From positions 62,001 to 126,000 of the forward strand of contig NZ_MCHY01000008.1 of NCBI RefSeq assembly GCF_003609605.1: a DNA stretch of 64,000 nucleotides, written 5' to 3'. The stretch comes from Ammoniphilus oxalaticus (lineage in GTDB: Bacteria; Bacillota; Bacilli; Aneurinibacillales; RAOX-1). The notes beneath the pieces were generated by a model. That model worked only from the letters and a program-made list of their open reading frames with translations. It was not told the origin of the DNA and ran no database searches. Position numbers and translations under genes: made by a program. This document shows, one piece after another, positions 32,564 through 36,414 of this stretch; position 1 is the stretch's first letter; each line of letters opens with the position of its first letter.

Positions 32564-32635
32564 AATTGATGTATGAATTTAACCGCGGAAAAACATAATG
32601 AGCAATAGACGATAGTGAAGAAAGGTGAACGTTTA

Positions 32636-33031
32636 ATGTTTTTTCACGGAATAGACTTTAAGTATTTGGAGCAAAAATATCCATTTTTATATCCTGATGC
32701 CTACGTAACTACAAAAAATGAGGAACAATTAGCGGACCGACAGCATTTGATTGAGCAATTTGGATTTGAGCCTGTCCACTTATTGGAATCAGCCCCAGGG
32801 TATTCTGCTAAAACTTGTATTAAGGAATGCTTTCGTTTTGGGGAAATTGTGTTAGTTTTCAAAGAAGTGACGGAGCCCATCATCCAACTAAGTCAACACG
32901 AGATCGGCGCGCGTTACCTAGATATTAGGACGTGTCAGTACATATTTACTCGCTCCGCGAAACAGGCGCAGATCCGCTTGCTTGGTTTAAAGCAGCCGAT
33001 TATAGCTTGCTCGAACGGTCCGCGCCCCTAA
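32636..33031 (+). CDS. hypothetical protein, 131 residues
   Basis: Not recognised. The protein is soluble and mixed in character, with three Cys residues in or near ETCIKECFR-like and RTCQY segments (actual text AKTCIKECFRFGE and DIRTCQYIF) and no signal peptide or transmembrane helix. The ATG at 32636 has AAAGGTG at good spacing; a GTG at 32615 lies before that site. It stands between the sdh terminator and gerE, where B. subtilis has ysmA, a thioesterase, which this does not resemble. Confidence 0.6.
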   Translation: MFFHGIDFKYLEQKYPFLYPDAYVTTKNEEQLADRQHLIEQFGFEPVHLLESAPGYSAKTCIKECFRFGEIVLVFKEVTEPIIQLSQHEIGARYLDIRTCQYIFTRSAKQAQIRLLGLKQPIIACSNGPRP

Positions 33032-33455: not shown

Positions 33456-33480
33456 ACCCTCGCGCAAAGCGGGGGTTTTT
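33456..33480 (+). terminator. terminator after gerE
   Basis: ACCCTCGC (33456-33463) pairs with GCGGGGGT (33469-33476) with one G-T pair and a five-base loop, followed by TTTT, C and five further T residues. Confidence 0.85.
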
Positions 33481-33570: not shown

Positions 33571-34056
33571 TTGTCACAACAACAGTTGCCGCTTATATAT
33601 CAACATTGGGATGAACAAAATTCTGAACCGATTGAGACGATTAATCGGATGTTGGTGAGCCGAGAAGTTTTATTCATTAGAAAGTTAGTGGATGCTACTG
33701 TGCTTCGCAATAAAATATGGGAACATACATCAAATGAAACAGAAGGGGACTACTCCTGTATTTATATTAAACCGTTTGAAATAAAAGAAACGCCGACAGG
33801 TGAGCAGATTGAACAAGTCGTTTTTGCTAGACATGATTTGGCCGGACGTTACGAAGCTGAGTACTGGGTTGTTTTAGAAAATGAATATCATCTGTTAACG
33901 GTGGCGACATTTGAGCAAACATGGCATGCGGCGCAAGTGTTATTGGACCATTATTTGCGCATAGCCGAAAAGCACTATGAGGTCAACTACGCAATTTTGG
34001 ATCCGAATCGAAAGAAAATTTTATTGTTTATACAAGAGACCTCATTTCGCGATTAA
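33571..34056 (+). CDS. unknown 161-residue protein of the ATP-grasp/DUF350 cassette
   Basis: Soluble alpha/beta protein, no signal peptide or transmembrane helix, not recognised. Landmarks are DYSCIYIKPFEIKE, VVFARHDLAGRYEAEYWVVLE and HYEVNYAILDPNRKKILLFI. The start is TTG with AAGGAGGGG six bases upstream. Its stop lies 17 bases before the lipoprotein start, and the four genes are packed together, so it belongs to the cassette. In E. coli the yjf cluster has a DUF2491 protein (YjfK) at the matching place; this could be a shortened relative, but I cannot show it. Confidence 0.75.
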   Translation: MSQQQLPLIYQHWDEQNSEPIETINRMLVSREVLFIRKLVDATVLRNKIWEHTSNETEGDYSCIYIKPFEIKETPTGEQIEQVVFARHDLAGRYEAEYWVVLENEYHLLTVATFEQTWHAAQVLLDHYLRIAEKHYEVNYAILDPNRKKILLFIQETSFRD

Positions 34057-34073
34057 TGGAGGTGGGAAGATAT

Positions 34074-34427
34074 ATGAAAAAGGAAGTTCAAACATGGTTT
34101 AAAAAAGAAGTTCAAAAATCAGGTTTAACGGAACCGCCTGAGGGGACACCGTTTTTTCAAAAATGGGTCGCTTTTTCTTTATTGTTTAGCGCGCCAATCG
34201 CGTTAAGCGGGTGTGGAAGCCAACAATTAACGGCCGAAGATGAATGCAAGTGGGAGCGAGATCGGAATGGAAAATGGGAGCTGGATTGTGATAATAACAA
34301 TTCTTCTTATTATCGGGGTCATGGCTACGCTTCTAAAGATTCTCCAATCCGCTCCTCTTCACCGATGATTAAGCAAGGGGTAGGCAGTGGCGGCAAGAAA
34401 AGCGGCGGATTTTTTTCTGGAGGATAA
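34074..34427 (+). CDS. YgiB/YjfM-like lipoprotein with Gly-rich C-terminal tail
   Basis: 117-residue predicted lipoprotein. A charged cytoplasmic N-terminus of about 30 residues precedes a hydrophobic stretch and the lipobox ALSGC with Cys47. The mature part is short and acidic, has two Cys residues (ECKWERD and LDCDNNN), and ends in a flexible Ser/Gly/Lys tail, GVGSGGKKSGGFFSGG. The ATG at 34074 follows GGAGGTGG; the in-frame ATG at 34056 comes before it. In E. coli a lipoprotein of this kind pairs with a GSPS-like ATP-grasp enzyme (ygiB-ygiC, yjfM-yjfC), matching the next gene here. The tail may be the enzyme's substrate; that is inference. Confidence 0.75.
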   Translation: MKKEVQTWFKKEVQKSGLTEPPEGTPFFQKWVAFSLLFSAPIALSGCGSQQLTAEDECKWERDRNGKWELDCDNNNSSYYRGHGYASKDSPIRSSSPMIKQGVGSGGKKSGGFFSGG

Positions 34428-34430
34428 ACG

Positions 34431-35762
34431 ATGAGAAAAGTTAAAGCATTGCCGCTCAGTCACAATGAATTGTTTTCGGGTGAACTAGGCGCCAAAATTC
34501 CATATCATCGCATGTATGATCAAGAATATTGTGTGCCTGCGATAACCGTGTTTTCTAAAAAAGAAATAGAATTATTGGAGAACGCATCGAAAAAAGTAGA
34601 TAAAATATTTCAAAAGACGCTCCGGTTTACGCAGCGTTATTTGCCTGATCCCGCGCTCGTTAATCAATTAGGTGTTCATCCCGCCTTAATTGCGAACGCT
34701 CGCATGGAAGTTCCTTATCATGGGGTGTCGAGGCAGGATTGGATTATTCAGCCGGACGGGATAAAGTTAATTGAAAATAATACCGATACGCCAACAGGGA
34801 TTCCAGAAACGGCATACCTTGCGGGAGCCATCGTTGAGCGAGTTGGTGGAATGATCAATCCATCGGAAGCAATGGATGAGCAAATTCGTAAATCGTTCGC
34901 AACGCTAATTCAATATTATCGTCAATGCGGGTTTACGGGACAGATTGTTTTTTCATGTTATGATTGGCATGAAGAGGACGCATGCAATACGACACATTTA
35001 ATGAATTTAGCCCGTCAAGCGGGATATCCCGCTATTTTTGCTCCATTAGACAAATTAGAAGTAGTACCGAATGTTGGGTTGTTTTACGAAGGGGAGCAGG
35101 TTGATATTTGGTATCGACTGTATCCGTTAGAATATTTAGTTCATGACACAGATGAGGATGGCTTTGAAACTGGTCGAGCTATTCTCGATTTGATTGAGCA
35201 AAAAAAGCTGGCAATTATTAATCCAGTCCAAAGCATTATTACCCAATCGAAGGGATTTATGGCCTTAATTTGGTCTTTGTATGAAAAGAATGATCAGCTT
35301 CCTAGCTTATGGAACACTGGCGCTCCTTTTTTTACGGATGAAGAATGCGAGACCATTGCCAATTATTTGTTACCTACTTATTTTGAAGATACTTATTTTC
35401 GTGAAAATAAAGTTGCGTGGGTTTCTAAAGCTTTTTTTGGAAGGGAAGGGAAAGGGACGTTGCTTTTTGATGAACAAGGCGCACCGAGCAAGGTTAGCTG
35501 GGAACATGAGCTAGATGATGAAGAGGCCCTGGCAACGAGGGATTATTACAGCAGTCAACCGCGGATCTATCAAAAACGAATCAAGCAGGAAAGAATGGAA
35601 ATACCGACGGAAGAAGGCCAATTCAACGGGTATTTACTGATCGGATCGTTTGTGATCGGTGGCGTTTTTGCGGGTATTTTGCCGCGTGTCGGGGGAGAAG
35701 TGACAGGTAATTTAGCGTACTTTATTCCAGCTGGGATCGAGGAAAATGGAGGTGCTATATGA
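34431..35762 (+). CDS. glutathionylspermidine-synthase-like ATP-grasp ligase (YgiC/YjfC type)
   Basis: 443-residue ATP-grasp enzyme of the GSP_synth family, forming an amide between a carboxylate and an amine. Conserved blocks: KLIENNTDTPTGIPE (Mg/ATP site), NPVQSIITQSKGFMALIW, the ATP-binding Lys strand AWVSKAFFGREGKGTLL, and the closing GSFVIGGVFAGILPRVGG with TGNLAYFIP. It lacks the amidase domain of E. coli Gss, so it is the YgiC/YjfC type, whose substrates are unproven. The ATG is three bases after the lipoprotein stop and the end overlaps the DUF350 gene by four bases (ATGA). Bacillales generally lack glutathionylspermidine, so a protein or peptide substrate is more likely. Confidence 0.88.
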   Translation: MRKVKALPLSHNELFSGELGAKIPYHRMYDQEYCVPAITVFSKKEIELLENASKKVDKIFQKTLRFTQRYLPDPALVNQLGVHPALIANARMEVPYHGVSRQDWIIQPDGIKLIENNTDTPTGIPETAYLAGAIVERVGGMINPSEAMDEQIRKSFATLIQYYRQCGFTGQIVFSCYDWHEEDACNTTHLMNLARQAGYPAIFAPLDKLEVVPNVGLFYEGEQVDIWYRLYPLEYLVHDTDEDGFETGRAILDLIEQKKLAIINPVQSIITQSKGFMALIWSLYEKNDQLPSLWNTGAPFFTDEECETIANYLLPTYFEDTYFRENKVAWVSKAFFGREGKGTLLFDEQGAPSKVSWEHELDDEEALATRDYYSSQPRIYQKRIKQERMEIPTEEGQFNGYLLIGSFVIGGVFAGILPRVGGEVTGNLAYFIPAGIEENGGAI

Positions 35763-36160
35763 TTGAGTTGTTTGATTTAGTCAACGTAGCGATCGGAGTT
35801 GTGTTAATTATAGCGATTATGTTAGTCGGTGTATTCATATTTGGTAGGCTGACTAAATTTAATGATCTAGAGGAAATTCAGAAAGGGAACGAAGCGGCAG
35901 GGATGTATTTGGGCAGTAAATTGCTTGGATTATCGATTATCGTGGCGATGGTTTCGTATAACAGTCTTTCCTGGCTGTCAATGATTAGCTGGTCCGTGAT
36001 TGGAATGGTTATTTTATCACTTGTTTATTTATTATTTGAATTTTTAACCCCTAAATTTAAAGTGAGCGATGAAATCGCGCAAGGGAATAAAGCAGTGGCT
36101 CGATTGTTAGGGGCTGTTATTATCGGAACATCGGTCGTGCTCGGGACCGTGCTTATGTAA
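35759..36160 (+). CDS. DUF350 membrane protein (YjfL-like)
   Basis: 133-residue membrane protein with four hydrophobic segments arranged as an internal repeat. Each half has the DUF350 signature (FNDLEEIQKGNEAAGMYLG, and FKVSDEIAQGNKAVARLLG) before a transmembrane helix. In proteobacteria DUF350 (YjfL) accompanies YgiC/YjfC-type ATP-grasp genes. ATGA overlap with the ligase gene indicates coupled expression. It may anchor the ligase or lipoprotein at the membrane; no activity is known. Confidence 0.88.
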   Translation: MIELFDLVNVAIGVVLIIAIMLVGVFIFGRLTKFNDLEEIQKGNEAAGMYLGSKLLGLSIIVAMVSYNSLSWLSMISWSVIGMVILSLVYLLFEFLTPKFKVSDEIAQGNKAVARLLGAVIIGTSVVLGTVLM

Positions 36161-36182: not shown

Positions 36183-36212
36183 AACTCTCTTGGGTGAGTT
36201 CCCAGGAGAGTT
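36183..36212. terminator. terminator between the DUF350 gene and a small convergent gene
   Basis: AACTCTCTTGGG (36183-36194) pairs with CCCAGGAGAGTT (36201-36212) with one mismatch and a six-base loop. The plus-strand tail is only moderately T-rich; it can serve both convergent genes. Confidence 0.7.
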
Positions 36213-36414
36213 ATCTTTTGAAATCTTCATAATTCATTTCTATTTCGGCCCATAGAGAGTGAGTTGACGCTACCTCAATATCCAGTTCTTCATAAATTTC
36301 TAGTAAGTTTTCGCAAAGTAAGTGTTTTTTAGTTGGATTTTTTTCACGTTTAATTTTGGATAGGATTTGATTGGCTTCTTTCTTCATGTATTCTCTAAAT
36401 TCGCTGCCGCTCAC
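36211..36414 (-). CDS. hypothetical protein, 67 residues
   Basis: Small, charged, mostly helical soluble protein (ENLLEIYEELDIEVA, HSLWAEIEMNYEDFKR). Not recognised. The start is GTG at 36414 on the minus strand with GGGAGTGAG about eight bases upstream. It stands alone between the cassette terminator and the CsoR-family gene. Codon use and a clean ribosome site favour a real gene, but short length leaves doubt. Confidence 0.5.
   Translation of the reverse strand: MSGSEFREYMKKEANQILSKIKREKNPTKKHLLCENLLEIYEELDIEVASTHSLWAEIEMNYEDFKR

Follow-up and report, generated by a model that had tools for sequence, protein, structure and literature searches.

A lipoprotein with a conserved Gly-Gly tail and its adjacent ATP-grasp ligase in Ammoniphilus oxalaticus: a probable system for C-terminal capping

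What does an ATP-grasp ligase of the GSP_synth family act upon when it lacks an amidase domain and is encoded directly behind a lipoprotein gene? The question is raised by a four-gene cassette of Ammoniphilus oxalaticus, located in the window analysed here, a stretch of 64,000 nucleotides (contig NZ_MCHY01000008.1, positions 62,001 to 126,000). Glutathionylspermidine itself has its amine attached at a C-terminal glycine. An earlier note on this DNA had read the cassette as a system that modifies its own lipoprotein rather than one that makes glutathionylspermidine, and this view is strengthened by the conserved Gly-Gly C-terminus and the lost glutathione-pocket signature described below. In our reading the cassette is probably a C-terminal lipoprotein-capping system, the ligase amidating the C-terminal glycine of the gene 2 product with a small amine, most likely spermidine.

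Organization and location of the cassette

The features are as follows, in window positions.

33456..33476, plus strand: intrinsic terminator-like hairpin after gerE, an 8-pair stem followed by a T-run; upstream boundary
33571..34056, plus strand: gene 1, a 161-aa partner protein; TTG start with a good ribosome-binding site
34074..34427, plus strand: gene 2, the lipoprotein; ATG start, with a further in-frame ATG upstream at 34056
34371..34424, plus strand: C-terminal tail of gene 2, KQGVGSGGKKSGGFFSGG-COOH; putative acid substrate of gene 3
34431..35762, plus strand: gene 3, GSP_synth ATP-grasp ligase of the YgiC/YjfC type, 443 aa, without amidase domain
34731..34796, plus strand: ligase motif R101-x-D103 ... 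E115-x-N117-x-DTPT, with the ATP/Mg residues and the YgiC/YjfC-type DTPT (DSAS in Gss)
35759..36160, plus strand: gene 4, a DUF350/YjfL-type integral membrane protein of 133 aa
36183..36212, no strand assigned: 12-pair terminator-like hairpin; downstream boundary towards a convergent 67-aa gene

The ORF positions agree with the original description: four plus-strand genes, the first three separated by 17 and 3 bases and the last overlapping its predecessor by 4 bases. The two terminator-like hairpins agree with the statement that terminators bound the cassette. A search for sigma-70 promoters gave no promoter-like site above chance expectation. The cassette had also been described as inserted after gerE, and this is upheld by Ammoniphilus sp. 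YIM 78166, whose gerE block (locus L183) runs through gerE, a 71-aa minus-strand gene and a CsoR-like gene with no cassette between, and in which the cassette sits elsewhere in the genome (L029/L031). The host genome is 3.3 Mb in size, and the Ammoniphilus genomes are the closest relatives found. The site after gerE is a lineage-specific location and is therefore uninformative on function. A sporulation-specific role, as adjacency to gerE might suggest, was rejected given the cassette-free site in this close relative and the presence of the system in non-spore-formers such as E. coli.

Other genes of this neighbourhood are conserved in Ammoniphilus. The 67-aa gene (36211-36414, minus strand), which belongs to no family, is kept beside gerE and the CsoR-like gene (L183, 2239-2454). 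Upstream of gerE a 138-aa gene (32615-33031) without a Pfam family is likewise conserved (L183, 176-628); in L183 two membrane genes, which we take to be TauE/SafE-like, separate its homologue from gerE.

The ligase

Gene 3 matches PF03738 (GSP_synth) with an E value of 2e-47 and 162.5 bits (cut-off 29.3), the match covering profile positions 12-370 of 371 (359 of the 371 positions). A PDB sequence search revealed E. coli YjfC and YgiC as its only solved sequence relatives. The AlphaFold (AF2) model has a pLDDT of 94.7 and its top fold match is YjfC (7uk6; E 4e-25, TM 0.73/0.82), followed by GspS and YgiC and then by trypanothione synthetase. These data, together with the DTPT motif, sustain the initial assignment of the protein as a YgiC/YjfC-type GSP_synth without amidase; the features of that type found here are a stand-alone ligase, the DTPT motif, a YjfC-like fold and an adjacent lipoprotein ending in Gly-Gly.

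The ATP-grasp catalytic residues, on which the earlier note had staked its proposal, all align with those of E. coli Gss. The aligned positions (Gss/gene 3) are R316/R101, D318/D103, E330/E115, N332/N117, K498/K274, K533/K333, R538/R338, Q568/Q381 and R598/R419; in GspS these nine are established as its ATP/Mg and catalytic residues. Across 73 aligned ligases D103, E115, N117, K274, K333, R338, Q381 and R419 are invariant, and R101 is kept in at least 90%. The Gss motif DSAS(C) (S335-A-S337-C338), the site where glutathione binds, is DTPT(G) in gene 3 (T120-P121-T122-G123) and DTPT(S) in YgiC/YjfC. The NCBIfam Gss equivalog model scores 12 bits against a cut-off of 882, and the N-terminal amidase domain is absent. 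Since the catalytic residues align and DSASC is replaced by DTPTG, gene 3, to judge from its sequence, is a YgiC/YjfC-type enzyme that looks active, not a glutathionylspermidine synthetase. The fold, the ATP/Mg residues and the proposed amide formation on a C-terminal glycine are what it has in common with Gss, from which it differs in the missing amidase domain and in the exchange of DSAS(C) for DTPT(G).

The likeness to E. coli YgiC/YjfC (PDB 7uk6, 7uk8, 7uka) comprises a GSP_synth domain without amidase, DTPT and all of the catalytic residues, and there too a GG-ending lipoprotein adjoins the ligase, as does a DUF350 protein in the case of yjf. In contrast, gene 3 is only about 22% identical to these proteins and some 55 residues longer, and the order here is lipoprotein-ligase-DUF350 rather than the DUF350-lipoprotein-ligase of yjf, with gene 1 occupying the place of YjfI/J/K.

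The lipoprotein and its tail

Gene 2 specifies a long n-region (about 30 aa ahead of the hydrophobic segment), the lipobox LSGC, two more cysteines in an acidic stretch, and a Gly/Ser-rich tail of the pattern GVG…SGG which ends in SGGFFSGG. No Pfam or NCBIfam match above cut-off was obtained for gene 2, nor any match to DUF1190; a lipobox and the tail signature are the sole features common to it and the DUF1190 lipoproteins (YgiB/YjfM). When gene 2 was aligned with 16 relatives from its own clade, the lipobox, the two cysteines in the acidic stretch, G[FIV]G and the final GG proved to be common and the rest variable, G[FIV]G and the final GG being the only strictly kept features of the tail.

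The usual tail of the partner lipoproteins is bipartite, [KR]xG[FIV]G…GG-COOH. The E. coli proteins end in SRSMGG (YgiB) and RGHWGG (YjfM), the annotated partners of Vibrio, Rhizobium, Sulfitobacter, Pseudomonas and Acinetobacter combine motifs of the GGFG, GGWG or QGFG type with a terminal GG, and in a Deinococcus partner the last residues are SSGG. The lipoproteins that share this tail (Bacilli, E. coli, other Proteobacteria, Deinococcus) are short, variable and otherwise little alike, and none of the partner lipoproteins scanned had a Pfam match.

How common the tail is was counted with a selection rule blind to the C-terminus. An exported ORF lies directly upstream of the ligase in 98 of 112 non-redundant loci; 60 of these 98 proteins end in GG and 87 in G or S, and 75 carry G[IFVLWYM]G within their last 15 residues. 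Among the other ORFs of those loci 21 of 649 end in GG, 18 of which were recognized by inspection as partner proteins that were clipped or lay elsewhere in the locus, so that the background falls to 3 of the 649 ORFs (about 0.5%). The GG counts are lower bounds because our own ORF caller, applied to unannotated loci, overlooked or truncated some of the ligases and partners. A GG end is lacking in about a quarter or more of the partners, and in a minority of clades ending in SSS, SSSG or similar KGGIGSSG alone is kept; since whole clades end in this manner, the last residue of the tail is not fixed. When placed on the ligase tree the tail classes require 13 changes versus 27 in shuffles (0 of 200 shuffles as low), and in the clade of gene 3 each of the 20 rows has the GG end; these tails were chosen with knowledge of the motif, and the tree therefore demonstrates clustering and not frequency.

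A separate ligase clade, mostly of the Paenibacillus type (L050, L057, L089, L100, L117, L132), has exported partners of 224-285 aa without a lipobox, which still end in KSGFGG or KGSFGG. Several genomes of this clade are without a strong spermidine synthase, and L050 also holds a second lipoprotein, DUF350 and an RCK-domain ion channel.

Distribution and the accompanying genes

A contig search with a single ligase sequence gave two loci only, and whole-genome searches were therefore used. The ligase is present in 170 of 400 Bacilli genomes (about 40%), and the lipoprotein/DUF350/ligase trio also occurs in E. coli, Vibrio, Rhizobium and Pseudomonas. Co-occurrence outside close relatives, which had been named in advance as a point on which the proposal could fall, is thus found both across the Bacilli and in four proteobacterial genera. 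Gene 4 matches PF03994 (DUF350; E 1e-29, 103 bits, cut-off 26). Of 76 cases with a DUF350 gene on the strand of the ligase, 59 have it immediately behind the ligase; among 54 well-flanked loci DUF350 was found in 35 and not found in 19.

Gene 1 had been left without an identity, yet it accompanies the ligase almost constantly, and on this point the earlier annotation, right overall, fell short. It matches no Pfam or NCBIfam model at cut-off. The members of its family are about 150 residues long and consist of two tandem beta-alpha-beta repeats; in their alignment R147 (numbered as in gene 1) is invariant, and Y10 and D144 are almost invariant. Its AlphaFold (AF2) model has a pLDDT of 95. Identification by fold failed (no PDB match reached E <= 0.001, and TM was no higher than about 0.33), and a relationship to DUF2491 (YjfK) was rejected by hhalign profile comparison (probability 0.2%). 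The profile of the family, A1, matches 138 of the 400 Bacilli genomes, all of them ligase-positive, that is 138/170 genomes with the ligase and 0/230 without it; 44 genera are involved, and the closely related species among them are not independent. In 117 of 117 genomes for which both coordinates were compared the two genes are on the same contig and within 4 kb. Gene 1 is absent from 32 of the 170 ligase genomes, and because of this and the 19 loci in which DUF350 was not found, neither is strictly required.

Other arrangements were encountered. L062 and L063 (and L023/L025) have open frames of 820-1058 aa with two tandem GSP_synth domains or matches, and on a Roseomonas plasmid (L176) DUF350 and DUF1190 come after a tandem pair of PF03738 ligases. 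On the Bacillus subtilis plasmid NZ_CP106792 (L180) a lipoprotein ending in GFGG and a ligase are followed by a poly-gamma-glutamate hydrolase family protein, which might be a deconjugating enzyme. A distant PF03738-like group of about 440 aa in other Bacillota (L070-L082), with a partial profile match and without a Gly-rich lipoprotein neighbour, probably has a different function.

Operons with a comparable core have been described. The classes of Ravi et al. 2024 (PMC11237479) combine PspA/CesT-Tir with an ATP-grasp ligase, DUF350, a DUF1190 lipoprotein, DUF2491 and a K+ channel. They share with the present cassette the core of ligase, DUF350 and lipoprotein, and a polyamine link is proposed there; PspA, CesT/Tir, DUF2491 and the channel are all absent from ours.

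The amine and the proposed reaction

According to PMC12568646, which cites Pederick 2023, E. coli YgiC and YjfC have peptide-spermidine ligase activity in vitro; the earlier note is to be corrected on this point. The RefSeq product names of both proteins are peptide-spermidine ligases. The literature searched, Pederick 2023 excepted, gave no in-vivo substrate or role for them. The host genome encodes a strong match to spermidine synthase (E 5e-71). Among the Bacilli a strong synthase is present in 152 of 170 ligase-positive versus 159 of 230 ligase-negative genomes, by a hand count uncorrected for phylogeny. The 18 ligase-positive genomes without one (several of the Paenibacillus type, and others) indicate that the amine may vary or be imported, so that spermidine is likely and not certain. 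E182/D183 of gene 3, which are nearly invariant acidic positions aligned with Gss E391/E392, would be compatible with a polyamine site.

In eukaryotes the LGG-COOH end of SUMO is joined to spermidine (PMC12270671), which means that the chemistry has a precedent and that this type of product exists in cells. The ATP-dependent joining of spermidine at a C-terminal Gly-Gly is the likeness to what is proposed for the cassette; E1/E2 chemistry, the ubiquitin-like fold and the eukaryotic setting are the differences, and the proteins are unrelated.

In the reaction that we envisage, the cytoplasmic ligase would recognise the bipartite tail [K/S]G[FIV]G ... GG-COOH of the gene 2 prolipoprotein and turn its C-terminal glycine carboxylate into an acyl-phosphate; an amino group of a polyamine, most likely spermidine, would then attack this to give an amide bond. 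Since the ligase needs ATP, capping would come first and export of the capped lipoprotein second. The mature lipoprotein would display a flexible Gly/Ser tail with a cationic polyamine at its end. Gene 1, a soluble two-repeat protein, and DUF350 probably hold the prolipoprotein or the ligase at the membrane, or control the reaction. We infer the lipoprotein tail as substrate with strong confidence and spermidine as the amine with moderate confidence, while confidence in the timing of capping and in the roles of genes 1 and 4 is weak.

The same tail might instead be linked to an amine belonging to something larger, be it a peptidoglycan precursor, a lysine, an amino sugar or a second protein, in which case the lipoprotein would be tethered and not capped. 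In its favour are the likeness of the GG-COOH end to that of ubiquitin-like modifiers, the length and flexibility of the tail, and the 18 genomes without a strong synthase. We nevertheless judge this unlikely, since a cytoplasmic ligase has cytoplasmic amines alone at its disposal, peptide-spermidine ligation is both the reported activity of its E. coli relatives and the source of their name, and the E182/D183 pair is compatible with a polyamine.

The earlier note had also proposed that the lipoprotein serves as a carrier. Its tail would then be a scaffold for the assembly, by the ligase and other enzymes, of a peptide or metabolite destined for later release or export. ATP-grasp enzymes can act on protein-bound carriers, as LysX does with LysW. 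We give this reading little credence, given that gene 2 is a membrane-anchored exported lipoprotein and that the cassette has one ligase and no other biosynthetic or release enzymes. Slightly less credible still is a small-molecule synthetase making a glutathionylspermidine-like conjugate beside an unrelated passenger lipoprotein, for which the name of PF03738 and the fold match to GspS speak, and against which stand the replaced glutathione-pocket signature, the 12-bit equivalog score and the expectation that in a passenger no specific C-terminal signature would persist from phylum to phylum.

Significance

The ligase type, its activity in E. coli and the existence of DUF350/lipoprotein/ATP-grasp ligase operons (the last from PMC11237479) were already known. 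Neither the gene-1 family nor the conserved bipartite tail with its Gly-Gly end was found mentioned in the literature covered, which included passages of that paper; Pederick 2023, which lay outside that scope, may already discuss the C-termini of YgiB/YjfM.

Capping of the gene 2 lipoprotein may be one case of a wider process. We hold as evenly balanced the combined proposition that bacteria of the Bacillota, Pseudomonadota and Deinococcota, at least, have in common a dedicated modification of the envelope, in which a cytoplasmic ATP-grasp ligase adds a polyamine, ahead of export, to the conserved bipartite tail [KR]xG[FIV]G...GG-COOH of an otherwise fast-evolving lipoprotein, and that in the Bacilli the two-repeat family of gene 1 is the dedicated partner of this system. 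If true, this would be the bacterial equivalent of the joining of spermidine to SUMO. The ligase family has a wide distribution, occurring in the Bacilli as well as in E. coli and other Proteobacteria. The conserved Gly-Gly C-terminus names a specific substrate, for which one mass shift and one required motif are predicted; it links polyamines with the cell envelope and makes a little-understood envelope modification directly testable, while DUF350 and the unnamed gene-1 family gain a first functional context.
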